DNA from: a virus
DNA length: 35,285 nt
Virus record (IMG/VR): IMGVR_UViG_3300030333_003349
Location: 1 to 35,285 of that record
Reading direction: 5' to 3' (one strand)
Position numbers and translations under genes: made by a program. This document shows, piece after piece, positions 3,784-30,989 of the stretch. Position 1 is the stretch's first letter; the number at the start of each line of letters is the position of its first letter. The notes below the pieces were generated by a model. The model was not told the origin of the DNA. It did not search any database and worked only from the letters and a program-made list of their open reading frames with translations.

Positions 3784-4035
3784 TTAGGGCTTAAGCTGCT
3801 TCGCTATGGATTTCTTCCAGATTTCCATGTAAGCCTGGCCCTTATTGTGAGGATCATCGACTGGCACCACGATCCAGTCTACTCCCCGGCTGTCGAGATC
3901 CTTGGCTAGGTTCTCAATCATCCAAGCCTCAGACTCGGCATCGTACCGGTAGGTCAGAGCTCGGTAGCCTTTAGCTCGAGCCACGGCCGGAGCGAGCACC
4001 TGGCGCTCGATGCCTATGATCTCGATAGGTTTCAT
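3784..4035 (-). CDS. Hypothetical protein
   Basis: 83 aa, no recognised family. It looks like a compact alpha/beta protein: IEIIGIERQVLAPAVARAKG, then YRALTYRYDAES, then VDWIVVPVDDPHNKGQA and a C-terminal amphipathic helix EIWKKSIAKQL. It starts with an ATG that overlaps the stop of the helicase loader gene by 4 nt (ATGA), so it is translated together with the replication genes. A helper role in replication is possible by position only. Confidence 0.55.
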   Translation of the reverse strand: MKPIEIIGIERQVLAPAVARAKGYRALTYRYDAESEAWMIENLAKDLDSRGVDWIVVPVDDPHNKGQAYMEIWKKSIAKQLKP

Positions 4036-4655
4036 TTGGTTCTGAAGCTATAGTCTTTTGATTTTAGGTACACCACTTTGCTTCCGTTTCTCGCCATTCG
4101 GCTGGCGATGCGTACATCGACTTGGGCTATCTCTCCGGCTGATTTGTTCGAGGTGATGATCGTCCATCGCTTGTCTCGAGCCCCGAGCAGATTGTGTAAT
4201 TTCTCGGTTGACCAGTCCGACTGTCTCTCTGCCAAAACATCATCGAGCACCAGGTAAGGCCATCGTGCCATGTCTCTAAACTTCTCGTAGTTTCCACGGT
4301 CTCTAAGCTCCTCGATGTACTGGGGCCAGTAGATCCATTGAGGTGAGTAATCGGCCTTGTTGTCCCAGTTAGGCCGAGTCCTGAGCCAATCCCAGAGGCG
4401 CCGGGCTACGTGCGTCTTACCCACTCCACTGTTGCCGAGGAGCGATAGCCAACGAGGTCTGTCTTCATGCTCGACCGATAGCGCCCACTGTGAGGCTGCT
4501 ACGATCATGCGCTCAACATCCTCATCGACTGGGTCGATCTTAAACCACTTTGCCCAGACCTTCGTATTGATCGGCCTGTCCTGAGTTTGCGGTGCCTTCG
4601 TTTCGATCTGGTTGCCGAAAAGATCCGTTGTGATTTGTTGTGCGCTTTTTGTCAT
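4032..4655 (-). CDS. DnaC-like helicase loader (AAA+ ATPase)
   Basis: 207 aa. Walker A is LLGNSGVGKTHVAR (GNSGVGKT at 74-81), Walker B is YLVLDDV (134-140), and sensor 1 is WTIITSNKS (164-172), followed by RIASRMARNG, as in DnaC/IstB-type ATPases. These load the replicative helicase onto the origin. The protein lacks the long N-terminal helicase-binding domain of E. coli DnaC. The start at 4655 overlaps the upstream initiator gene by 116 nt; an ATG at 4508 (M50) would remove the overlap and leave the whole ATPase core, but the sequence between reads well in both frames. It follows the initiator gene directly, the usual initiator-loader pair of phages. Confidence 0.85.
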   Translation of the reverse strand: MTKSAQQITTDLFGNQIETKAPQTQDRPINTKVWAKWFKIDPVDEDVERMIVAASQWALSVEHEDRPRWLSLLGNSGVGKTHVARRLWDWLRTRPNWDNKADYSPQWIYWPQYIEELRDRGNYEKFRDMARWPYLVLDDVLAERQSDWSTEKLHNLLGARDKRWTIITSNKSAGEIAQVDVRIASRMARNGSKVVYLKSKDYSFRTK

Positions 4656-5316
4656 CGGTCCATGGAGAGTTTTGAATGATATGCCACCATCTCACTGGTG
4701 TTTTGTTTTTGTTCAGCCAAAGGTTTTGGCCTTGATAGTAGTTATAGAAGTCGATTGCTCGTTGCTCGGGGATGCTGCGCGAAGCGCAGAAGGCCTTTAT
4801 TTCGTCCAGGCTTGGAGGCTGTTTTGCGTCTGCCTTTAATAAGTCTTTATCTTTAGCTTTAGATATAGATATAGAATGCTTCGCGTTTGCTTCGCGTTTG
4901 CTTAAGCAGTCGTTAACGTTTGCTTCGCTTTTGCTTAACGTTTGCTTCGCTTTTGCTTTAGCGCGTGCTTGGCCGGATGCTTTACCTCCAGCTCTCCCGG
5001 CGGCCGCTTTGGCTGCTGCGTAAGCGTTGTACTCCTCGGCCTCTCTTGTCATGCGGTCGCAGATTATCGACACAGATTCATCGTCAAACCTAACCTGACA
5101 CGCCTGGGCATCCTTGATTTCCTGAAGCAAAGCTTTAGCTTTTCCCGGCTGCACTCGCAGAGCTCGGCACAGGTGAGCCATGCTGCACTCAAGCTTTCCG
5201 GGAGAGGGTTGGGATGCCAGGAGGCAAAGGATGCGGATCCACGCTCCCTCTGCCTCCAGGCTTAGAAACATCGCGCCTGATAGCCATGCGTCTGGATAAA
5301 AGCGGATGTACTTCAT
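4540..5316 (-). CDS. Replication initiator / primosomal protein carrying the origin repeats
   Basis: 258 aa. The N-terminus (MKYIRFYPDAWLSGAMFLSL, then EGAWIRILCLLAS) has the short motif found at the start of DUF1376/DnaD-like phage replication proteins, with a winged-helix region to about residue 90. The middle (about 95-165) is low-complexity, rich in Lys, Ala and Ser, and contains imperfect repeats such as LSKSEANVNDCLSKREANA. The C-terminus (about 168-258) has IPEQRAIDFYNYYQGQNLW and TPVRWWHIIQNSPW, as seen in replisome-organiser proteins. The low-complexity linker is the translation of an 11-bp iteron array, so this gene probably contains the origin, as in lambda O. It is followed by the helicase loader. 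Confidence 0.75.
   Translation of the reverse strand: MKYIRFYPDAWLSGAMFLSLEAEGAWIRILCLLASQPSPGKLECSMAHLCRALRVQPGKAKALLQEIKDAQACQVRFDDESVSIICDRMTREAEEYNAYAAAKAAAGRAGGKASGQARAKAKAKQTLSKSEANVNDCLSKREANAKHSISISKAKDKDLLKADAKQPPSLDEIKAFCASRSIPEQRAIDFYNYYQGQNLWLNKNKTPVRWWHIIQNSPWTDDKKRTTNHNGSFRQPDRNEGTANSGQADQYEGLGKVV
4835..4954. other. Candidate replication origin: iterons plus AT-rich tract
   Basis: Seven tandem 11-bp units run from 4878 to 4954 in strict register: GCTTCGCGTTT (4878), the same (4889), GCTTAAGCAGT (4900), CGTTAACGTTT (4911), GCTTCGCTTTT (4922), GCTTAACGTTT (4933), GCTTCGCTTTT (4944); a decayed unit follows at 4955. Directly beside it, 4835-4877 has only 8 G/C in 43 bases. Because 11 is not a multiple of 3, the DNA period cannot be a by-product of a short protein repeat. 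One helical-turn spacing plus an adjacent AT-rich melting region inside an initiator gene is the classic lambdoid origin layout. Function is inferred. Confidence 0.65.
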
Positions 5317-5318
5317 GA

Positions 5319-5666
5319 TCAGTAGTCGTAGACGGTGCCGCCTTGTGCAGCCCAGTTTTCCTTAAGAGCATCGACGCCTTTTTCCTTCAAGATGCAGTGC
5401 ATCTCCTCGGCCGCTCTGACAGCCTCAGTCCGAACATCAACCAACTCTTTTGCGTCAGTGTAAGTCACCCCGCTATGACTCTTGGTCCATGGGCCTCGCA
5501 CCGGCTGATCTTTCACCCAGTGCGGATTGTTTTCGTTCCTCGATACATCCCGGAATAGGCAGATGATCTGAGTGTTTGCTGAGTGGTGCGTGAAACATGC
5601 GTTGACGTATTTATCTCCAACCTCAAGGAGGTAGCTTTTGTTTAGTCTAATTTTCGGTGTTTCCAT
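5319..5666 (-). CDS. Hypothetical protein
   Basis: 115 aa from the ATG at 5666 (METPKIRLNKSYLLEVG); the frame stays open to 5828, but that part only mirrors the preceding gene. It reads as a beta-rich start followed by a C-terminal helix (YTDAKELVDVRTEAVRAAEE, about 67-86). No family recognised. It lies between the DnaA-like gene (20-nt overlap) and the initiator gene (2-nt gap), so it is part of the replication operon. Its ribosome binding site is not obvious. Confidence 0.5.
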   Translation of the reverse strand: METPKIRLNKSYLLEVGDKYVNACFTHHSANTQIICLFRDVSRNENNPHWVKDQPVRGPWTKSHSGVTYTDAKELVDVRTEAVRAAEEMHCILKEKGVDALKENWAAQGGTVYDY

Positions 5667-6045
5667 TTTGGTTATCTTTGTGTTTTTCGATTTCGATTTG
5701 GTATGCGTTTTGGAGCGACTCGTAAGTCGCGGTGAAATGCGGGTCTCGGTTAAGCCAGTTCGTCGCGGTCTTACGTCCATGTGTGACGTTACTACGCTGC
5801 ATGTTGAAAAGTTTGCTGATTTGATCATCGGTACATCCGGCGATATCGTGCAACAGCATCATCAGCGCATAACGCGCATAGAGAATGTGCTTGAATCGCC
5901 GCTTAGAGGTTAATTCGTCTTCAGAGGTGCCCCAGAGCTCCTGGGCTAATTGTTTCGCTTTCTCGATTCGCCACCTCATCGGCGGCAATACGTATTTGGT
6001 TGATGAAGTTTGTGGTTCCGTCATTTGTGAAGTCTCGGTCTGCAT
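5647..6045 (-). CDS. Stand-alone DnaA domain IV-like DNA-binding protein
   Basis: 132 aa. Residues about 45-98 match the pattern of the DnaA C-terminal domain: basic residues before a helix (SKRRFKHILYARYALMMLL), then a helix-turn-helix (GCTDDQISKLFNMQRSNVTH, 70-89) ending in THGRKTATNWL, which corresponds to the DnaA signature region that contacts the DnaA box. No ATPase domain is present. It may recruit or mimic DnaA at the phage origin, or block host DnaA boxes. The start at 6045 overlaps the dNMP kinase gene by 125 nt; an ATG at 5979 (M23) keeps the whole domain and shortens the overlap. A second protein of the same kind is at 8390-8959. Confidence 0.65.
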   Translation of the reverse strand: MQTETSQMTEPQTSSTKYVLPPMRWRIEKAKQLAQELWGTSEDELTSKRRFKHILYARYALMMLLHDIAGCTDDQISKLFNMQRSNVTHGRKTATNWLNRDPHFTATYESLQNAYQIEIEKHKDNQNGNTEN

Positions 6046-6466
6046 TTATTTGATTAATCATTGTTTCGCTTATGTGGTTATCGTTGTCCGTAAATTTGCC
6101 CGTAAGCCTCCATACCAATCCTCCCTCGGCATGGACCCAATCGGCTTCGTATGGAAATCTCAAATCGTCTATGATTAGGTGCTCATAAAAGGGTTGCATC
6201 TCATGCCAGTCAGATGCCAGGGCCTCGACCCAAATGTCCTCACCGTATCGTTCCTTGTATGCCTGGCCCACTGCCTGGTACACCGGTCGCAGAAGCTTCT
6301 TCTCATCGGCATCATGCGGGTCGTATGGTCCAAAAATCTTCTCGACCTCTTTCTTGATGCGGTAGGCAAAGCTCAAGATCTTGGTCTCTCCCTGAAGCAC
6401 CTCCTGTAGCACCTTTGCGGCTGTTGATTTGCCGCTCAGTTTTTTACCTGTAAGTGCAATTATCAT
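5921..6466 (-). CDS. Deoxynucleoside monophosphate kinase
   Basis: 181 aa with the P-loop GKKLSGKST (7-15) at the extreme N-terminus. It continues in the pattern of T4 gp1-like dNMP kinases: ILSFAYRIKKEVEKIFG, YQAVGQAYKERYGEDIWVEAL (about 66-85), and LIIDDLRFPYEADW (about 97-110), where the Asp and Arg are part of the lid/substrate region. It phosphorylates dNMPs to dNDPs to feed phage DNA synthesis in the cytoplasm. There is no Shine-Dalgarno sequence; instead a 9-bp hairpin sits 8 nt upstream of the start. The first replication gene after a 127-bp gap. Confidence 0.85.
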   Translation of the reverse strand: MIIALTGKKLSGKSTAAKVLQEVLQGETKILSFAYRIKKEVEKIFGPYDPHDADEKKLLRPVYQAVGQAYKERYGEDIWVEALASDWHEMQPFYEHLIIDDLRFPYEADWVHAEGGLVWRLTGKFTDNDNHISETMINQINADRDFTNDGTTNFINQIRIAADEVANRESETISPGALGHL

Positions 6467-6593
6467 TCTTAATTAAGCCGGGGATGGGAGTATCCAACAG
6501 CACCACCCCCGGCTTGTTTGTCATGCGCTAACCCATTTTTAGATTAGCTTGTTTTTGTTTGCTTGTTTCCCCATCAGCACTCGCTGACAGAAA
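6467..6593 (-). promoter_or_regulatory. Gap with 9-bp hairpin upstream of dNMP kinase
   Basis: AAGCCGGGG (6475-6483) pairs perfectly with CCCCGGCTT (6507-6515) across a 23-nt loop. Leftward transcription has no T-run after it, so it is not a standard terminator; rightward it is followed by GTTTGT, which is weak. The hairpin ends 8 nt before the dNMP kinase ATG and could control its translation or protect the transcript. A 26-codon leftward frame (ATG at 6524, MTNKPGVVLLDTP...) covers the hairpin and overlaps the kinase start. It is possible but unsupported. Confidence 0.35.
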
Positions 6594-10018: not shown

Positions 10019-11227
10019 TTAAGTCAAGATGCCAATCGTCACGGATTTCTTCTCGGTGAGATCTGCGTAGTACTTTGAAGTGATCTCGGGCCCGGCATGG
10101 CCGAGATACTTCTGAGCCGCAAACAATCCGAGCTGAGTTGCTACATTGGCACCAAAGTATTTTCTGAGCTCATGACAGCTCTTGTGACCCTTTAAGCCAG
10201 CGTCCCGGATGATCTTGGCTACCGCATTACATGCATGGGCATACCGAGCAGTTGGATTGCCGCCGGGAATGATGTAGTCGTCTGGCTGAACCCGCTGGGC
10301 TTTTCCAACGCGACTGAAAACAGTGACAGCCTTACGGAACGATCTAATGTGGGCTACCTGGTCCGGGCTCAGAGGCACCTCCCTGGAGCGCCCAGACTTG
10401 GTAGAGAAATCATCCTCGCTCTGCACAAGGAGCGAATCCTCGGTGAGCCAACTCCACCTGGCACATGCAGCCTCGTTGCGCCTGAGACCGCAATGAAGCT
10501 GGAGGTAGTATGCGAGGTAGGCAGCCGGGTTTGAGTCCTTCAGTTTTTCGCATCGCTTGATGATTACTTTGAAGGTGTCGATCTTGTCCTTGACCGTGTA
10601 CTGAGTGTCGTCAACTGCTTTGGGTAAGGGCTTGGACTGCCAGGCAGTGAGAGAGGCCGGCAGATCGAACTTGTAGCTGTCGATGAATCGCCGGCTGAAA
10701 AGCGATCTTACATTTTTAATGTGCGAGTTGGCAGTGCGGATAGCTGTCTGCCGTGCTTTGTTTTCTTTGCCGGCCAGGCGGCGCTGGTAGAAAAGCTCGA
10801 ATGCCTCCGGGCTGAATGCCTCAGACAAGTTTGAGTGCTCATTGCATCGAGTCTCTCGGAGATAGATTCTCAGGTGCGAGCTCACCACCTTTGCCCTGGT
10901 CCTCGACCGCACGTGGAGCGCGTTTGCAGTCCAGTGCAGAATCACGTCAATTACACGTGGAGTAGGGGAGTCTGACTGTACATTTTCGGTCTCCTGTTTT
11001 TGCTGGGGTTTTTCACAAATTTGTACACGATCGTGTACAGTTTCGTGCACAGAATCGTGCACAGTTTTATGTACAATCCCTAGTTTCGTAAGTAGCTTGT
11101 ATTCAGCGACTTGTGATGCTGCGGACTTAGAGGTTTCGCCGGTAGAAACTACGTATTCTTTGCCATCGACGATTTTCTTCCCGTACCATTTTTTGCCTCT
11201 TTTGAAGAGGGTTAGTGTTTTCTTCAT
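10019..11227 (-). CDS. int: Tyrosine recombinase integrase
   Basis: 402 aa. The C-terminal catalytic domain has all expected residues: Arg in CGLRRNEAACARW (R249), Lys in the beta-hairpin (STKSGRSREV, K278), H352-x-x-R355 in SCHELRKYFG, His in YLGHAG (H377), and the nucleophile in SKYYADLT (Y386 or Y387). A core-binding domain precedes it (about 90-190) and the N-terminus (KRGKKWYGKKIVDGKEYVVS) resembles the usual arm-binding fold. It integrates the phage into a tRNA-Lys gene: attP lies 57 nt upstream of its start. Odd: residues 52-69 are the repeat VHKTVHDSVHETVHDRVQ, encoded by a 12-bp DNA repeat. A terminator follows at 9913-9944. Confidence 0.95.
   Translation of the reverse strand: MKKTLTLFKRGKKWYGKKIVDGKEYVVSTGETSKSAASQVAEYKLLTKLGIVHKTVHDSVHETVHDRVQICEKPQQKQETENVQSDSPTPRVIDVILHWTANALHVRSRTRAKVVSSHLRIYLRETRCNEHSNLSEAFSPEAFELFYQRRLAGKENKARQTAIRTANSHIKNVRSLFSRRFIDSYKFDLPASLTAWQSKPLPKAVDDTQYTVKDKIDTFKVIIKRCEKLKDSNPAAYLAYYLQLHCGLRRNEAACARWSWLTEDSLLVQSEDDFSTKSGRSREVPLSPDQVAHIRSFRKAVTVFSRVGKAQRVQPDDYIIPGGNPTARYAHACNAVAKIIRDAGLKGHKSCHELRKYFGANVATQLGLFAAQKYLGHAGPEITSKYYADLTEKKSVTIGILT
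11022..11075. repeat. Five TGYACA hexamers at exact 12-bp period inside int
   Basis: TGTACA at 11022 and 11034, TGCACA at 11046 and 11058, TGTACA at 11070. In protein this gives a VHxT/VHDx four-residue repeat. The same 12-bp pair, including ATCGTGTACA, appears outside any gene at 3096-3113, so a DNA-level role is possible. Confidence 0.7.
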
Positions 11228-11475: not shown

Positions 11476-11664
11476 TTACTCGGAATCTTCCGGCTCAGAA
11501 GTCTCACTCATGGCTTCGTTGACCGCACTGACGATACCCAACATTGAGTTGCCTTTGAGGATACCTCCACTGTTGTAGTACATGCCATCATCCTTGGCTT
11601 GTTGGTTAAGGTAAGCAATTCTTTCTGCCTTGGGCATATCCTCAAACTTCTTCTGGTCATTCAT
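11476..11664 (-). CDS. Small hypothetical protein, last gene of late operon
   Basis: 62 aa, acidic. It begins MNDQKKFEDMPKAERIAYLN, which looks helical, and ends with ETSEPEDSE. The ATG overlaps the stop of the 2027-aa protein gene (ATGA). The late-operon terminator follows 27 nt after its stop. No family recognised; a small virion or assembly protein is possible by position. Confidence 0.6.
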   Translation of the reverse strand: MNDQKKFEDMPKAERIAYLNQQAKDDGMYYNSGGILKGNSMLGIVSAVNEAMSETSEPEDSE

Positions 11665-14600
11665 TTCTTAGCCTTCTTCTTTACTGCTTCTTTCGCCGCC
11701 TTGATCTCGGCCTTCCTGGCGCGTTTGCGCTTGGCACTGATCCATGGTGCGTTCTCTTCAAACGCTTGGCGATCGAAGATCTCTTTGGATCGTACGACTT
11801 TCTCTTTTCGGCGCAACTCTTTTCGGATTGGGATTTTTGCGATTAGACGCTTGAGCTCCTTTTTAATTACATCTCCCTCCTTGTAGGTCAGGTCTCCATT
11901 CATCACGGCGATGTCAACCGGGGTCGTCATCTCGCTCACGAAATCCCCCCTCTTGGACTTAGACCCAAGGGACTCTTGGTTGCCGATCATCTCCCGACTC
12001 CTGGCCGGGAGGTCCAGCTTCTGATCGACCGGCCCAGCACCCTGGGACTCCACCTTTTCGACAGCTTTCGATACTTGGCGCCTGGCAAAGTTCATCACGT
12101 TCCGAGCGAGCTCACTGCTTCCAGGGTTCCTGGTGATCGGGTTTTCATCCGATCTCTTGAACGTGTCGTACAGGATTGCTTCAAGCTGATACTCAGGCAC
12201 GTTGTGATCCTTCATGATCTTCTTAATCGTTTCCCTGTTCTTCTGAATCTGTACGTCCATGTCTCCCCCGTAATACTGATCGCCTATAAACATCCCCCCA
12301 GGAGTCTCGGTGTATCCGGTGAAGATGACATTGCCATCGTCGTCGGTCAGCTTCGACAGGTCCAGGTAGAACGCTGACCTCTGCTCCTCGTTCAGTGCTC
12401 GCGTGTCAAACTCGATCGCAGTTCCTGTGGGAACATTTTGAGCAACCTCCTCGAGGGTAGGCTTCCTGATGATGTTACCCTCCTCTTGATCCCATGCCCG
12501 GCTTAGTGCCTCCATCGTAACGCGAGTTGCAGTCGCATCGCCGGTCAAGGCAATGACCAGGTTGGGGCTAACGGCAACCCTACCATCCTGAGACAAGTAA
12601 GCTCCTCTGCCAGTCTTGATCGTGTCGATGCGAGCATCAATCCCGAGGCCATCAAAAATGCGCTGAAGTCCATCTACCAGTCCATCAGCAACAGCTTGGG
12701 TCATGGCAACAGCCCCAACTTTGTTGCTGGCTGCCTGGACCCGCTTTGCGTCCAAGGACGTACCGTCAGTAACCACTTCGATTGGGATTAGCTGCTCGGA
12801 GGTTTTGTCCCAGGTGTCCTGAATTGCATCGAGAGCATTCTTTGCTAGGGGATCAATGTTGGTCATCCAATCCTCCTTGGCGGCCATCTTCCTGATGGCT
12901 TCGATTGCTGGCTTAAGGCGATCCCCAAAACGTGTCAGATCTCTATTTTGCATGAGAGGGTTATCACGCTTCTCGATAGCCCAAATGATTTCCTGTGCGT
13001 TGCGAGCTTTGAGAATGTCTTTACCCAAGCTCGATGCGAGACCGAGCTGATTAAGTCGATCTGCAATCAGCCCATCAATCATCTGCTGCGCGTCATACAC
13101 CGGACCACTTCCTCCTGGCGTTAAGCCGGCCTCGTCAGGCTTCTTGTAGTAGGACCACTCGGTATCTTCATCAAAGCCTTCAGCAACCCTCTCGGCCCAT
13201 GACTCTGCATTCCAATCCCGGCGGCCATCGATGAGGAGACCTTTCGCATATTGATAGTCGAGCTCAGAGATTGAACGAGGGATGCGTTTGACAGCTTTGC
13301 CCTGGGCATTCATCACCACTGAGGGTGAGTCCTTGAGCGCCTTCTGAAACATCGGAGCACCGATCGTGGTTTTGACGCGATGCTTCTGAACAGACCACTG
13401 ATACTCTTTTCCTTTTTTGCGATTCTTCAACGGGATGTATCCAGGTTGCGCGTAACCCTTCGAGGCCATGTCCCACATGTCTACGGTTGCGAGACCATCT
13501 AGAAATTTAATCACTTGAGTCTCGACTGATGGAGTCATTCTTCCACCTTTAACAAGCCCCAAGGTCCGGGCTGCCATGCCGCGCAATTTCTTTTGCTCTC
13601 GCGCTCTCTCAACCTTGGACAAGCTTTCATCTTTTCCAGCCATGTCGATGAGCTCTGCCAGGGAGTTGAGATAAAAGTTTCTCACCTTGTCGTCTGCTCC
13701 GATTGCATCTTTGGATAGCACGTCGAAGTGTTTGCCCATCTGCCAATCCTTGGCGGCCTTGGATGCCCCCAGTTGCCCGAGGCCCATACCAATCTTGTAG
13801 CCAGCCTGTTGACCTCGAGCGCCAAGTATTGATCGTGCGCTCTTGGTTGCATTGGCTTTTACATCTGTCCTCGGAGATCCCAGTGCCAGGAACCGGAGCA
13901 TGAGCTCGGCTGTCCTGTAGACTTCCGGCTTACCTGTTCCGTCCATCGGAGCAATGTACCTAGCCAGCCCCAGGCCGGACTCAGCCATGTCGCTGTAGAA
14001 GTTGGCAGCCTCGACTGCAAAATCTGGATTCTCTTCGATGAGTGCTTCGATGCGTCTGACCTGTTGATCGACGATTGAGATGACCTCGGCGTACGAGTTA
14101 GGGACTCCGCTCACGCTACGATTCACAACGCCCAGGCGAGCCGGCAAAGCCACTGAACCTTCCACCGGGTTCTGCGGGTAGTCTGCAATGGACAGACCAA
14201 CCTGGGTGCGTTTTTTGTCACCAACATCCATGGAGCGAAGATCACTCTCTCTTCCGGCTGCTGTCATCGATGCGTTGAGCTTAACTTGTTGATAACCTCC
14301 AGAGGTCAGTGGATGCCTGGTAGCAGTCGAAGGCACAACCGAATTGACCGCATCCAGTCTGCGAGTCTGAATGAGACGATCCCGATCCTCCGGGTTCATC
14401 AAATTGAGAAGCGCATTCTGTTTCGCCGCATTGTTCTTGAAGTCAATATCCTTGGCTTTGAAACCAAAGAACGCAGACAGCACATTCGCTTTCTGACGGG
14501 CAATCTGAGGGTCAGCATCCAAGCCTTTGGATAGGCCTATTTTTGGATCTGGATCCAGAGTGTTCTCCAGATACTTGACCAGATCAGTGCTGAAGTTTTC

Positions 14601-17600
14601 ACGGACGATAGTCATGTCCTCCTGGCCTGAACCCCAGAGCTGGGTGATTCTTTCAGCCCTACCACCCTCGGACTTGTCAGTCATGATGCGCTGATATTTG
14701 TCAGCGATCCTACCGAGGTCGAGCGTATTGAATGTAAGGTTGCCAGCATTGGTGACCCTCATCGAAAACACTGCCACCTCACGCAAAGAGCTTCCGATCA
14801 AAGAGGAGTAGACTGCTTTCGGGTATGTTCGCTTTTTCTTTTCTCCAGACTTTGTTGTGACCTCCTTAGTGGTGAGCCTGGCATTGTAATCGAGTGTGAT
14901 GATCTCGCCGGTCTTAGCCGATTCATTGATCATCGTGAGATGCTTGAGTAAGGCCGGAGGCATCGTGTACTTAGGTGCATTGCGAAGCTCCTTCATGACT
15001 ACGTCCGGGATGTAGTCACCGTGAATCGTGTAGCCACCTTCACCGTCTTCCTCATACCTCACAGGAGTCATTCCATTCTTTGACTCGATGTGGTTGCGAT
15101 GACCCATGAAGGCTTTGAGAAATACCTGACCTCGCTCCCTCTCTTTTTTGCGAAGCTCTTTCTGAGACTCCTCGAACAAGATGTTGCCGGATGAGTCGAA
15201 CATGACGTTCCCGGCCTGGTCATGTTTAACCAGGAGAGAGCTCTCCAGGCTTTTAGCGAGCGCACTACCCTTCTTAATTTGCGTTCGCTTATAGACCTGA
15301 CCACCGGGTTCGCTCTTGGGCTCGGCTTTTCTGAGTTGCCCATCAACTACCTCGAGCCTATTGGCCTCGTTGATAAGACCATTCATGGCCGCTTCAACAT
15401 CCGGGCTATCGTAGGAGATCAGATCAGTGACGCTGCCTTCTTTGCGGTAACCTTGTTTGCTTAAGAGGCGATCGGTAGTTCCATTGATGATCGAAATCAT
15501 GTTATTGATTCGACCAGAGAACCCTCGATGCAGCTTGGCTGCATTCTCTTCAAGTCCGGCGCGTTGAACGTAGAGTGGATCTTTGCTGGCAAAGAAAGCC
15601 TCGAAGGCATCCGCGACCACCTCTTCCTTCATCCTTACTTTTCGCCAGTAGTTTGTTTCGCTCTGAAGTGATTCTGGCTTTGCGTTCTTTGCGAGCTGTT
15701 CATCCTGGGCGACGATCTGATCTGCCAGAGCTCTGGTCTCTGGCTTTGATCGGAGATTGTTTATGTATTGGTCGTAGTAGAGGAGCAACTGGTCATCGCT
15801 TACCAAACCCTTGATGGCGGCATCCCCGTCTCTCCCTGGAGTGTCGAAAAGCACTGAGTGCAACTGTTCAAAAAACGGTTGGTAAATATCGAGAGAGTCG
15901 AGGCCGTGGGCCATCTCATGGATGGCAGTGGTCTCGGTCATCTTGTTGACGTTGACCAGTAGGATGGGCTTTGCTCCAGCCCGGCGCGTGTTTAAAATCT
16001 GTACACCTCGAGTGGCGCTGACCTGTTTGTCAGCATCAACATTTGTGGTGATGGTTTGATAATGCTCAGTGGCCGTGTCCAGGTCTAATGCCTGATCCAC
16101 TCCGGCCTCCTGGAGGCTTCCGAATAGCTCCTTCTGGTTTTTACCGTCCCAGTAAATGACATCCATGAAGGTGTCACCAGTGGTGCCCCTCACTGCTGTC
16201 TTAGCCATTGCCTCGAATGCCGCGATTCTCGCGATGCCTTCCTCGGTGACTTCACCAGACTTCATGCGGTCACGGACGATTTGCTGCATGTCCTCTGGAA
16301 GCGTACTCATCCACCTGTCGGCCTCTGCCTTGATAGCGGATTTGTCCGTCCAGAATTTAGCGCCCCGACCAAACCCTCGAAGGCCGCCAAACAGTGCACC
16401 ACCTCCGGCCACTGATCCCATCATCTCATCGTCCATGGTTAAGGCAGAGATAGCCAAGCCTCCCAGGGCACCTTGTGCTGCACCTGATGTAGTCTTAACC
16501 GAGACCCGTGCAATCGGAGTTGCCAAACGCAAAAGCGGAGACAGGAAGGGAACGTCTTGAAAAATCCTATGGCCTATAAAGTTGGCAGCAGATCTGATCT
16601 TGGGGCTGTTCGTAGCATCCCTGGCGATCCGCATGAAGATGTTTGACTGGCCCGTATCATCGAGAGCTCTGGTGATGGCCTTGGTGGTCCTGTTAATCGC
16701 ATCAAGAGCATCTTTGATTTCTGGAACGCGCCTGGTGACAGCACCAACGATTGGAGCTGTCTGCGATTCTGCGGTGAAATTGTCCAGCTTTGAAGCGCCA
16801 GTTGCCATGGGCTCGACCGTATATTCTCTGGCCTTGTCCACAACATCTACAACCGGCTTTTTCATGGCTTTTGTTAACACCCTTCCGGTCGTCGTTGCGA
16901 ACTGCATAGGTTCGACGATGGGGAAATATGACATGGCCTCTGCCAACTTTGTGGGCATTGCTGCTCGCACAACATTACGAAAATCTTGGGCCGCCAAGGC
17001 AGATTGCTCGCTTCTCTTAACTTCGCCAACCCCAAGAGGCGCCGAGTATGTTGCGCTTTTGTCGTCTCCAGTAAGGCCCGACAACGCCAAACCCAAATCC
17101 CCGATAGCTGTCTCTTTGCCCGATAGGTAATCCTCACGATCGGCCATCATGTTTTGGAGCTCTCTAAAACTTTGACGCACACGCTTCTTCTCCTCCTCCG
17201 GGCGATCTATGTAATCGACTTTCTCCCACTCAGGGTCAAAGCTTTGCCACCATGAACCCTTTGGTGCGACATTGCGGTACCCACTAAGCGAACGCTTCAA
17301 CTCAATCATCTTAATAAGTATCCCCGTATCGTATGCAGCACGTGCCCCACCCTCAACAGCAGCCAGTCCAAAATCACCTGGCTTACCCTCTTTTAGCGAT
17401 TCAATCCCTTCCCCGAGACCGGCACCGAGCTCACCAATAATAAATGGAATAGCTTCAGTCGCAGCAGTGGTCAGGCCCCCAAAATCAAAGTCCTTGTTGT
17501 TAGCGTATGAAAGGTAAGCATCAATTTGTTCATCTGTAAGGTCTCTGCTGGGATCTTCCCGGACTGCATAGTATAAGGTCTCAGGATCAGCCGGGTCGTA

Positions 17601-17744
17601 CCGGTTGACAATCTGCTCAACAGGAATGCGCTCCTCGGTCACAGGAGCAGAGGCACTTTCAATCGCATCGAGTTGAATGCGTCCGGCTTCCTCCGCTCCA
17701 CCACTGGCGCCAAGGATCTGATCAAGAGTCAATCTTTCAGCCAT
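11661..17744 (-). CDS. Giant internal virion (ejection) protein with zincin motif
   Basis: 2027 aa, 17% of the window. No signal peptide. Visible parts: hydrophobic glycine-rich segments at about 88-150 and 412-455 (AAQGALGGLAISAL and SVAGGGALFGGLRGFGRG), which suit membrane insertion; TTAIHEMAHGLDSL with H609-E-x-x-H613, a zinc-metallopeptidase motif; and a very basic C-terminus (KRKRARKAEIKAAKEAVKKK). The overall style, with mixed domains and one enzyme motif, is that of large phage 'polyvalent' or internal core proteins injected with the DNA. Upstream are two smaller, probably related virion proteins, arranged as in T7-like ejection clusters. The start overlaps the preceding stop as TAATG. 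Whether the peptidase is active is unknown. Confidence 0.75.
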   Translation of the reverse strand: MAERLTLDQILGASGGAEEAGRIQLDAIESASAPVTEERIPVEQIVNRYDPADPETLYYAVREDPSRDLTDEQIDAYLSYANNKDFDFGGLTTAATEAIPFIIGELGAGLGEGIESLKEGKPGDFGLAAVEGGARAAYDTGILIKMIELKRSLSGYRNVAPKGSWWQSFDPEWEKVDYIDRPEEEKKRVRQSFRELQNMMADREDYLSGKETAIGDLGLALSGLTGDDKSATYSAPLGVGEVKRSEQSALAAQDFRNVVRAAMPTKLAEAMSYFPIVEPMQFATTTGRVLTKAMKKPVVDVVDKAREYTVEPMATGASKLDNFTAESQTAPIVGAVTRRVPEIKDALDAINRTTKAITRALDDTGQSNIFMRIARDATNSPKIRSAANFIGHRIFQDVPFLSPLLRLATPIARVSVKTTSGAAQGALGGLAISALTMDDEMMGSVAGGGALFGGLRGFGRGAKFWTDKSAIKAEADRWMSTLPEDMQQIVRDRMKSGEVTEEGIARIAAFEAMAKTAVRGTTGDTFMDVIYWDGKNQKELFGSLQEAGVDQALDLDTATEHYQTITTNVDADKQVSATRGVQILNTRRAGAKPILLVNVNKMTETTAIHEMAHGLDSLDIYQPFFEQLHSVLFDTPGRDGDAAIKGLVSDDQLLLYYDQYINNLRSKPETRALADQIVAQDEQLAKNAKPESLQSETNYWRKVRMKEEVVADAFEAFFASKDPLYVQRAGLEENAAKLHRGFSGRINNMISIINGTTDRLLSKQGYRKEGSVTDLISYDSPDVEAAMNGLINEANRLEVVDGQLRKAEPKSEPGGQVYKRTQIKKGSALAKSLESSLLVKHDQAGNVMFDSSGNILFEESQKELRKKERERGQVFLKAFMGHRNHIESKNGMTPVRYEEDGEGGYTIHGDYIPDVVMKELRNAPKYTMPPALLKHLTMINESAKTGEIITLDYNARLTTKEVTTKSGEKKKRTYPKAVYSSLIGSSLREVAVFSMRVTNAGNLTFNTLDLGRIADKYQRIMTDKSEGGRAERITQLWGSGQEDMTIVRENFSTDLVKYLENTLDPDPKIGLSKGLDADPQIARQKANVLSAFFGFKAKDIDFKNNAAKQNALLNLMNPEDRDRLIQTRRLDAVNSVVPSTATRHPLTSGGYQQVKLNASMTAAGRESDLRSMDVGDKKRTQVGLSIADYPQNPVEGSVALPARLGVVNRSVSGVPNSYAEVISIVDQQVRRIEALIEENPDFAVEAANFYSDMAESGLGLARYIAPMDGTGKPEVYRTAELMLRFLALGSPRTDVKANATKSARSILGARGQQAGYKIGMGLGQLGASKAAKDWQMGKHFDVLSKDAIGADDKVRNFYLNSLAELIDMAGKDESLSKVERAREQKKLRGMAARTLGLVKGGRMTPSVETQVIKFLDGLATVDMWDMASKGYAQPGYIPLKNRKKGKEYQWSVQKHRVKTTIGAPMFQKALKDSPSVVMNAQGKAVKRIPRSISELDYQYAKGLLIDGRRDWNAESWAERVAEGFDEDTEWSYYKKPDEAGLTPGGSGPVYDAQQMIDGLIADRLNQLGLASSLGKDILKARNAQEIIWAIEKRDNPLMQNRDLTRFGDRLKPAIEAIRKMAAKEDWMTNIDPLAKNALDAIQDTWDKTSEQLIPIEVVTDGTSLDAKRVQAASNKVGAVAMTQAVADGLVDGLQRIFDGLGIDARIDTIKTGRGAYLSQDGRVAVSPNLVIALTGDATATRVTMEALSRAWDQEEGNIIRKPTLEEVAQNVPTGTAIEFDTRALNEEQRSAFYLDLSKLTDDDGNVIFTGYTETPGGMFIGDQYYGGDMDVQIQKNRETIKKIMKDHNVPEYQLEAILYDTFKRSDENPITRNPGSSELARNVMNFARRQVSKAVEKVESQGAGPVDQKLDLPARSREMIGNQESLGSKSKRGDFVSEMTTPVDIAVMNGDLTYKEGDVIKKELKRLIAKIPIRKELRRKEKVVRSKEIFDRQAFEENAPWISAKRKRARKAEIKAAKEAVKKKAKK

Positions 17745-30002: not shown

Positions 30003-30989
30003 TTATGCTCCGTATCCGGTCTTGGAGTACACACGTGCAACGTGCAATGGCTGAAGCGTCTTGGCTGCATATAGAGCCTTAAAGCCAACGCGAGTTTTCT
30101 GATTGAGCGGATCGCTCTTATCGGCTCCAGAAGTGATAGTCACGCTAGGAGCAAATGGAGACTGAGAGCTCAATGACGGAACCCCGTAAGCCTGGTCGCC
30201 AAACACAATCGAACCGTAAGCAGTTCCAGCCGCATTGTAGGTGTATTGAGATCCGGTCACCAAACGGTGAGGTACGGAAGTCTCAACGAACCGAATCCCG
30301 TGCAATCGACCAACTTCACCACGCAAACGAGCATCAGGCTCGGCGTAATGATGAGCGTTAATCCACTCGCTATCGTTCATCAGATCGCGGCTAACTTGAG
30401 GTCCAATCACACCAACATAGTACCCGTCAATCTGAGATGCGTTATTAATCTTCAAACCAGTAGCAGCATCCAAGAAGTCGAGTGCGTCAGCGTTGCCAAT
30501 GTCAGCAAATGTCCAGTTAGTTGCAGTGCCGGAGAACACGTCACCAGCAGTAGACCCAACATTGCTGAACACTTCGTTTCGGATAATCTCGTCAAGCTTC
30601 AGAGCGGCGTCACGGCCGATCCTTAAGGTTGCTTGTTCCACGTTGTTAAACAACTCAAGAGCAGTCAGGAGATCAGTGATATCGATCACCTGTCCGTACT
30701 GAGCGAGGTCAGCACTGACAGACTCAAGTTGCAGAACATTTGCGGTTGGAGTAGTTCCCTCAGTGAGGCTGGATACGTTAGAGGCGGCGCCTTTAGCGTA
30801 TCGGAAAAACTTCATCGTGAGATCGCCACCACTCTTTTCCGGGAGAGCTTGTTTGGAAGCGAATTGTGAAAGGACTAGATTGTCCTCGATAGTGCGAAGG
30901 AGTTCGCGTGAGAAGTAGTCTTGAAGACTGTTCTTTACATCACCGGCACCTGTACCGGTTGCTGTTGTTAATGTGCTATCTGCTGCCAT
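30003..30989 (-). CDS. Major capsid protein, N4-gp56 family (HK97 fold)
   Basis: 328 aa. SLQDYFSRELLRTIEDNLVL (22-41) is the N-terminal helix that N4-gp56-type capsids share. It continues with LPEKSGGDLTMKFFRYAKGA (about 49-68), LTEGTTPTANVLQLESVSAD, and ALKLDEIIRNEVFSN, the spine helix of the HK97 fold. Later come NASQIDGYYVGVIGPQVSRD (about 181-200) and VFGDQAYGVPSLSSQSP. The gene is flanked by scaffold (10-nt gap) and a small acidic protein, as usual. An A/T-rich leader without Shine-Dalgarno precedes the ATG. Confidence 0.9.
   Translation of the reverse strand: MAADSTLTTATGTGAGDVKNSLQDYFSRELLRTIEDNLVLSQFASKQALPEKSGGDLTMKFFRYAKGAASNVSSLTEGTTPTANVLQLESVSADLAQYGQVIDITDLLTALELFNNVEQATLRIGRDAALKLDEIIRNEVFSNVGSTAGDVFSGTATNWTFADIGNADALDFLDAATGLKINNASQIDGYYVGVIGPQVSRDLMNDSEWINAHHYAEPDARLRGEVGRLHGIRFVETSVPHRLVTGSQYTYNAAGTAYGSIVFGDQAYGVPSLSSQSPFAPSVTITSGADKSDPLNQKTRVGFKALYAAKTLQPLHVARVYSKTGYGA

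Follow-up and report, generated by a model that had tools for sequence, protein, structure and literature searches.

An 11-bp Iteron Array Embedded in a Phage Initiator Gene as the Probable Initiator-Binding Part of a Replication Origin

Short direct repeats inside a protein-coding gene may serve the protein or the DNA. We met this question in a viral sequence record 35,285 bases long (the whole stretch is called the window here), in which an initial annotation, made from the sequence alone, had placed a probable replication origin inside an initiator gene. This gene runs from 4540 to 5316 on the minus strand and encodes 258 amino acids. It matched phrog_9327, "primosomal protein" (PHROG E value, 2.9e-8), over residues 1 to 158, which comprise the N domain and the linker. 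Directly downstream on the same strand lies the gene for a DnaC-like AAA+ helicase loader (4032 to 4655; phrog_50, E value, 5e-22; Bac_DnaA/IstB-type AAA+ match), whose start codon sits within the terminal part of the initiator gene. Neither a Phage_rep_O nor a RepA_N (PF06970) domain was present among the Pfam matches of the initiator up to an E value of 1. Matches to Tudor_2 and DUF2203 (E values of 0.08 to 0.18) were taken as chance.

Slightly upstream of the initiator gene, a 132-residue protein with a DnaA C-terminal DNA-binding domain (PF08299; E value, 5e-7) is encoded at 5647 to 6045 on the minus strand, and a DnaA-like gene also adjoins the DUF1376 gene of Rhizobium phage RHph_N28_2. 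The window contains three DnaA boxes, which equals the chance expectation, and none is close to the array. No Rfam matches were found within 4000 to 6500. Farther away are genes for an integrase (10019 to 11227) and an N4-gp56-family major capsid protein (30003 to 30989, minus strand), which mark a temperate phage having this capsid type, together with an open reading frame (ORF) in the structural region (11661 to 17744, minus strand; 2,027 amino acids). The integrase gene itself contains a 12-bp tandem repeat, TCGTGCACAGTT, in 3.1 copies (11031 to 11067), which codes for part of the peptide HKTVHDSVHETVHDRV.

The array occupies 4871 to 4958 on the minus strand and is made of 11-bp direct repeats, AAGCAAAMGYK, with seven AAGC units and one degenerate slot (4904 to 4914); the last unit (4871 to 4881) is a half match. 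The seven in-register units that had been reported were recovered. Tandem Repeats Finder returned a period of 11 at 4877 to 4958. Identity at lag 11 was 0.66 at the array and 0.43 at the runner-up place (85-bp windows, whole 35 kb), making the array the strongest 11-bp periodicity anywhere in the window. On the coding strand, AAGCA starts at 4958, 4947, 4936, 4925, 4903, 4892, and 4881, with the degenerate slot at 4914, giving core spacings of 11-11-11-22-11-11. A 26-bp three-unit pattern, with up to two mismatches allowed, had four matches in the window, all within the array, and zero matches in 100 dinucleotide shuffles. No second array of the AAGCA unit was found elsewhere in the window. 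Two outlying AAGCA copies lie at 4959 to 4982 on the minus strand (starts at 4982 and 4970). The array had been described as strictly helical-turn spaced; this is true of the core only, since the spacing becomes 12 bp at 4970 and 4982. These outlying copies are probably relevant, given the mixed 11- and 12-bp spacing in DUF1376 relatives described below.

Because its AAGCA starts are 11 bp apart, the seven units occupy all three codon phases. The initial annotation had called the period out of step with the codons; this holds for the single unit, but three units make 33 bp, which is in step, so that an 11-residue peptide repeat (SKSEANVNDCL/SKREANAKHSI) arises as a by-product. We compared the array with 2,000 synonymous shuffles in which the peptide was fixed and the codons were redrawn from genome or gene usage. 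The observed identity at lag 11 or lag 22 was reached in none of the 2,000 (windows of 60 or 70 comparisons); with 44-comparison windows, lag 11 gave a P value of 0.0015 to 0.002. Lags 10 and 12 showed no excess over the shuffles. The array encodes approximately residues 116 to 160, the end of a long helix and the linker. Read in the coding orientation, the repeat gives hydrophilic peptides; in the opposite orientation, the peptides are mostly hydrophobic. Of random 11-mers, just some 4% stay open in three phases without encoding F, L, I, M, V, W, Y, or C. In-gene iterons may look alike because so few 11-mers are both open in three phases and hydrophilic.

Beside the array is an AT-rich tract at 4835 to 4877, a probable unwinding element. 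The 8 G/C in 43 bp that had been noted there proved to be the lowest count in the window, tied with one other place, and by nearest-neighbor energy, no other 40-bp stretch in the window is as unstable as 4837 to 4876; over 60 or 80 bp, the tract is not the least stable. Its coding-strand units (TATATC TATATC TAAAGC TAAAGA TAAAGA) have a 6-bp period, and its lag-6 identity exceeds that of synonymous shuffles.

We then looked for relatives. A whole-protein search with the window initiator returned none in annotated phages or in bacterial genomes and one viral contig (96% identical), and a peptide-repeat query among phages found nothing. Since these queries gave almost no relatives, we searched by DNA pattern instead. 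The three-unit pattern AAGCAAANGNN AAGCAAANGNN AAGC was found at 70 viral loci, mostly inside the linker of initiator-like ORFs; the 53 distinct ORFs included 13 of DUF6291, 11 of DUF1376, and 5 of Lin1244_N, and 16 matched phrog_9327, although the loci, here and in the sets below, share ancestry and such counts are not independent events. Control patterns with the same core matched 27 loci when the spacing was 10 bp and 108 when it was 12 bp. Generic AK/AE-type protein repeats made up many of the latter, but a dozen were DUF1376 initiators, and we therefore dropped "11 bp only" as a general rule. Five near-identical contigs (L005, L011, L032, L042, and L061) have iterons of the AAGCAAA type, with a spacing of about 11 bp and AT-rich surroundings, where the strand concerned has no long ORF; these may be origins of the same type at a noncoding place.

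The window initiator has no direct Pfam match to DUF1376 (PF07120); nonetheless, an iterative search of the fetched ORFs from its N domain gathered DUF1376, Lin1244_N, and a few other initiators. The N domains of the window, DUF1376, and Lin1244_N are therefore probably distant relatives, judging by sequence. A single multifamily alignment was too diverse for scanning. Since the pattern-found set is biased by its selection, we assembled two sets chosen on the N-terminal domain alone, one of DUF6291 (30 genes, nonredundant at 90% N-terminal identity) and one of DUF1376 (28 nonredundant genes).

All 30 DUF6291 genes carry an 11-bp array at a constant place. The unit sequence varies (AAGCAAA, AAGCGAA, AACCAAA, AACCCCA, and others), while identity at lag 11 is 0.743 compared with 0.548 in synonymous shuffles (P < 0.05 in 30/30), and the best lag, multiples of 6 left out, is 11 or 22 in every gene. 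Of 123 spacings in AAGC-type members, 97 are exactly 11 and none is 10 or 12, and the three codon phases contain 48/45/52 of the AAGC units. In other ORFs at the same loci, lag-11 identity has a median of 0.43 and reaches 0.61 at most, compared with an initiator median of 0.75. From sequences read by eye rather than by profile search, the gene that follows the DUF6291 initiator often appears to encode a helicase of the DnaB type or a zinc-finger primase-helicase. The initial annotation had predicted that relatives would keep the period while codons drift, and this is what DUF6291 does: in 30/30, the 11 bp persists while unit and peptide change. An amino acid repeat kept with the DNA period lost had been named as the refuting outcome, and the opposite was seen. 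Together with the shuffles, this bears out the claim of selection at the DNA level. We also asked whether the iteron class (AAGC or AACC) covaries with the N domain. The signal was weak (within-minus-between identity, P = 0.008; nearest-neighbor agreement, P = 0.03), and we do not claim it: the C domain shows nearest-neighbor agreement too, and the comparison is confounded by relatedness.

In the DUF1376 set, AGCA spacing is mixed, with 29 cases at 11 bp and 35 at 12 bp; the strongest lag excess is at 23, and single-gene tests at 10, 11, or 12 bp gave a P value of <0.01 in only a quarter of the genes. One-turn spacing is therefore the rule, but only certain families keep to exactly 11 bp. The window acts like the strict 11-bp families, though its N domain is closer to DUF1376. 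Among named phages, the spacing is just as varied: 11 bp in Riemerella phage GRNRAP2, Nitratiruptor phage NrS-2, and Rhizobium phage RHph_N28_2 (in its DUF1376 gene), 12 bp in Pseudomonas phage AH02 and Komagataeibacter phage phiKX1, and 10 bp in Lactobacillus phage JNU_P4. The O-like initiator gene of Vibrio phage Athena1 (L291) has a 21-bp repeat, 98% exact, which is a two-turn spacing nearer to that of lambda. No clear array was seen in the initiator genes of the Azospirillum Cd and Microcystis JY08 phages. In Vibrio phage 1.183.O (MG592549), a "CRISPR spacer" is annotated inside the DUF1376 initiator gene, at the repeat array (L302, 1540 to 1569); it is probably the array mistaken for CRISPR.

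In both N-terminally chosen sets, the array is followed by a period-6 tract, positioned as in the window. Lag-6 identity in the tract is 0.62 in DUF6291 (background, about 0.3) and 0.45 in DUF1376 (background, about 0.26). Codon choice in the relatives' tracts is restricted: inside versus outside, asparagine is AAT in 244/258 versus 262/454, valine is GTA in 74/92 versus 71/208, aspartate is GAT in 63/64 versus 157/227, serine is TCA in 77/81 versus 69/319, and proline is CCT in 62/83 versus 78/281. These figures show that the 6-bp tracts are under synonymous constraint; slippage could contribute to their codon uniformity. The tract may be no more than meltable, or it may be read by a protein as a single strand.

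An AlphaFold2 model of the window initiator predicts an N domain of winged-helix topology, a long helix, a disordered linker (pLDDT of <50 over most of 133 to 156), and a small helical C domain; this model and that of DUF6291 were built on shallow alignments (32 and 29 sequences, respectively). The best PDB matches of the modeled N domain included RepA_N N domains, 4pql, 4pt7, and 5kbj (Z scores of 8.9, 8.7, and 8.2), of which 4pql and 4pt7 carry only the labels "DNA binding protein" and "initiator" in the match list. Matches to the RepA_N winged-helix fold of the 4pt7/4pta/5kbj type cover 83 to 86 residues of the predicted N domain, but unrelated winged helices score 7 to 8. DUF1376 models were among its top viral fold matches, again as predicted structures. 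A profile search against PDB sequences gave only apparent chance or tag/linker matches. The DUF6291 model has no predicted winged helix and, among Foldseek's candidates, no PDB match with a Z score of ≥5. Given that missing winged helix, the families may not share a common iteron reader.

The array is very probably the initiator-binding part of a phage replication origin that the initiator gene itself carries. The in-gene origin that the initial annotation had proposed gains support at the sequence level from the match to a primosomal family, the adjoining helicase-loader gene, and the 11-bp period and 6-bp tract of the relatives. We infer binding, melting, and the start site as follows. Copies of the initiator would bind the 11-bp direct iterons, and since these are one helical turn apart, the bound copies would sit along a single side of the helix. 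Bound initiators would then strain and open the adjacent AT-rich tract, where, to judge from gene order and homology, the DnaC-like loader would deliver the replicative helicase. A disordered, hydrophilic linker would tolerate many peptides, leaving the DNA there free to carry a second message, and it is in the initiator linker that the array is located across several families (DUF6291, DUF1376, and Lin1244_N).

Other explanations have to be weighed against this. The array might be an operator through which the initiator or another regulator controls its own operon, with no replication start at the site. An iteron array conserved at the DNA level suits any multisite binding protein, and iterons may also act in autoregulation, as is established for plasmids. 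However, the array sits in the middle of a gene, several hundred base pairs from the start of the coding sequence, and always next to a tract that is meltable or 6-bp periodic, in genes that neighbor helicase or loader genes, and we consider this reading improbable. The array could also be the by-product of selection for a flexible, charged 11-residue linker repeat; the peptide does repeat, as 3 × 11 bp is 11 codons, and the linker is hydrophilic all along. Yet the period is lost when codons are shuffled synonymously, the units are spread evenly over the three codon phases, and relatives encode differing peptides with the same DNA period (SKTEAKPKQ, SETEAKPKR, TKPEPKRNQ, and NPTETPQKPHK). Selection on the peptide is thus already largely refuted and very improbable. 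Neutral tandem duplication in an unconstrained linker would fit the predicted disorder of that segment and the apparently slippage-prone hexamer tracts, but 30/30 nonredundant DUF6291 genes share position and period despite differing units, and the period is rare in other ORFs of the same loci, so that neutral duplication is hardly credible.

With the array read as the initiator-binding part of an origin, a broader idea may be put forward, tentatively and with some doubt: DUF6291, DUF1376, Lin1244_N, and other phage initiators might share a dual-coded linker cassette, in which one-turn iterons open in every used codon phase are followed by a synonymously constrained 6-bp tract that is a sequence-specific single-strand loading site and more than an AT-rich stretch. 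If this holds, the sequence alone would reveal the origins of very many uncultured phages. Only a few model replicons are known to have in-gene origins. Our results indicate that the layout is widespread among phages, suggest a function for DUF6291 and DUF1376, families annotated as unknown, and offer a simple rule for locating origins in uncultured phages: an 11- or 11/12-bp linker array, then a 6-bp-periodic tract. They also provide a clear example of coding sequence made to follow a period in the DNA. Arrays of 11-bp, one-turn units across these phage families were not described in the literature searched, and most subscription journals lay outside that search, so this silence is weak evidence of novelty.

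The window has the sequence features of an in-gene iteron origin, namely, an in-gene array, an adjacent meltable tract, and constraint at the DNA level. In lambda, the origin lies inside gene O, with iterons and an AT-rich tract mid-gene and the helicase-loader gene next, and the iterons, four in lambda and six in Stx phages, are 19-bp near-perfect inverted repeats that bind O dimers (PMC5043065, PMC7466680). The window shares this order of iterons, AT-rich tract, and loader gene. The likeness to lambda ori drawn by the initial annotation therefore stands for the in-gene layout, as does its remark that the iterons are shorter, but the window has direct 11-bp one-turn units instead of 19-bp inverted repeats, and its initiator lacks a Phage_rep_O match. 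SPP1 oriL lies inside gene 38, where direct repeats and an AT-rich unwinding element are found within the gene for the origin-binding protein; SPP1 also has a separate loader gene and a second site, oriR (PMC6316719). Here the likeness is one of layout, with in-gene direct repeats, an AT-rich element, and a separate loader gene in both, whereas the window has a single array of its unit and SPP1 the additional oriR. For the gene of Francisella phage KIRK, fhv_0043, which holds a putative origin by prediction only (PMC7924643), the likeness is that a phage replication gene contains both repeats and an AT-rich stretch.

In plasmid pSK41, ori is central in rep, the encoded linker between the N and C domains can be deleted, and the winged-helix N domain of Rep binds repeated Rep boxes (PMC5703833). 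The window array is likewise central and codes for the N-C linker, and the modeled N domain of its initiator is closest, by a narrow margin over other winged helices, to RepA_N structures. In contrast, pSK41 has four Rep boxes with inverted subrepeats and a poly-A tract where the window has one-turn direct units, and the pSK41 C domain contacts DnaG primase, whereas the window initiator gene is followed by a DnaC-like loader gene. The window initiator has no sequence match that would place it in RepA_N. By sequence neither lambda O proper nor RepA_N, the locus is best read as working like the origins in lambda O, SPP1 gene 38, and pSK41 rep.
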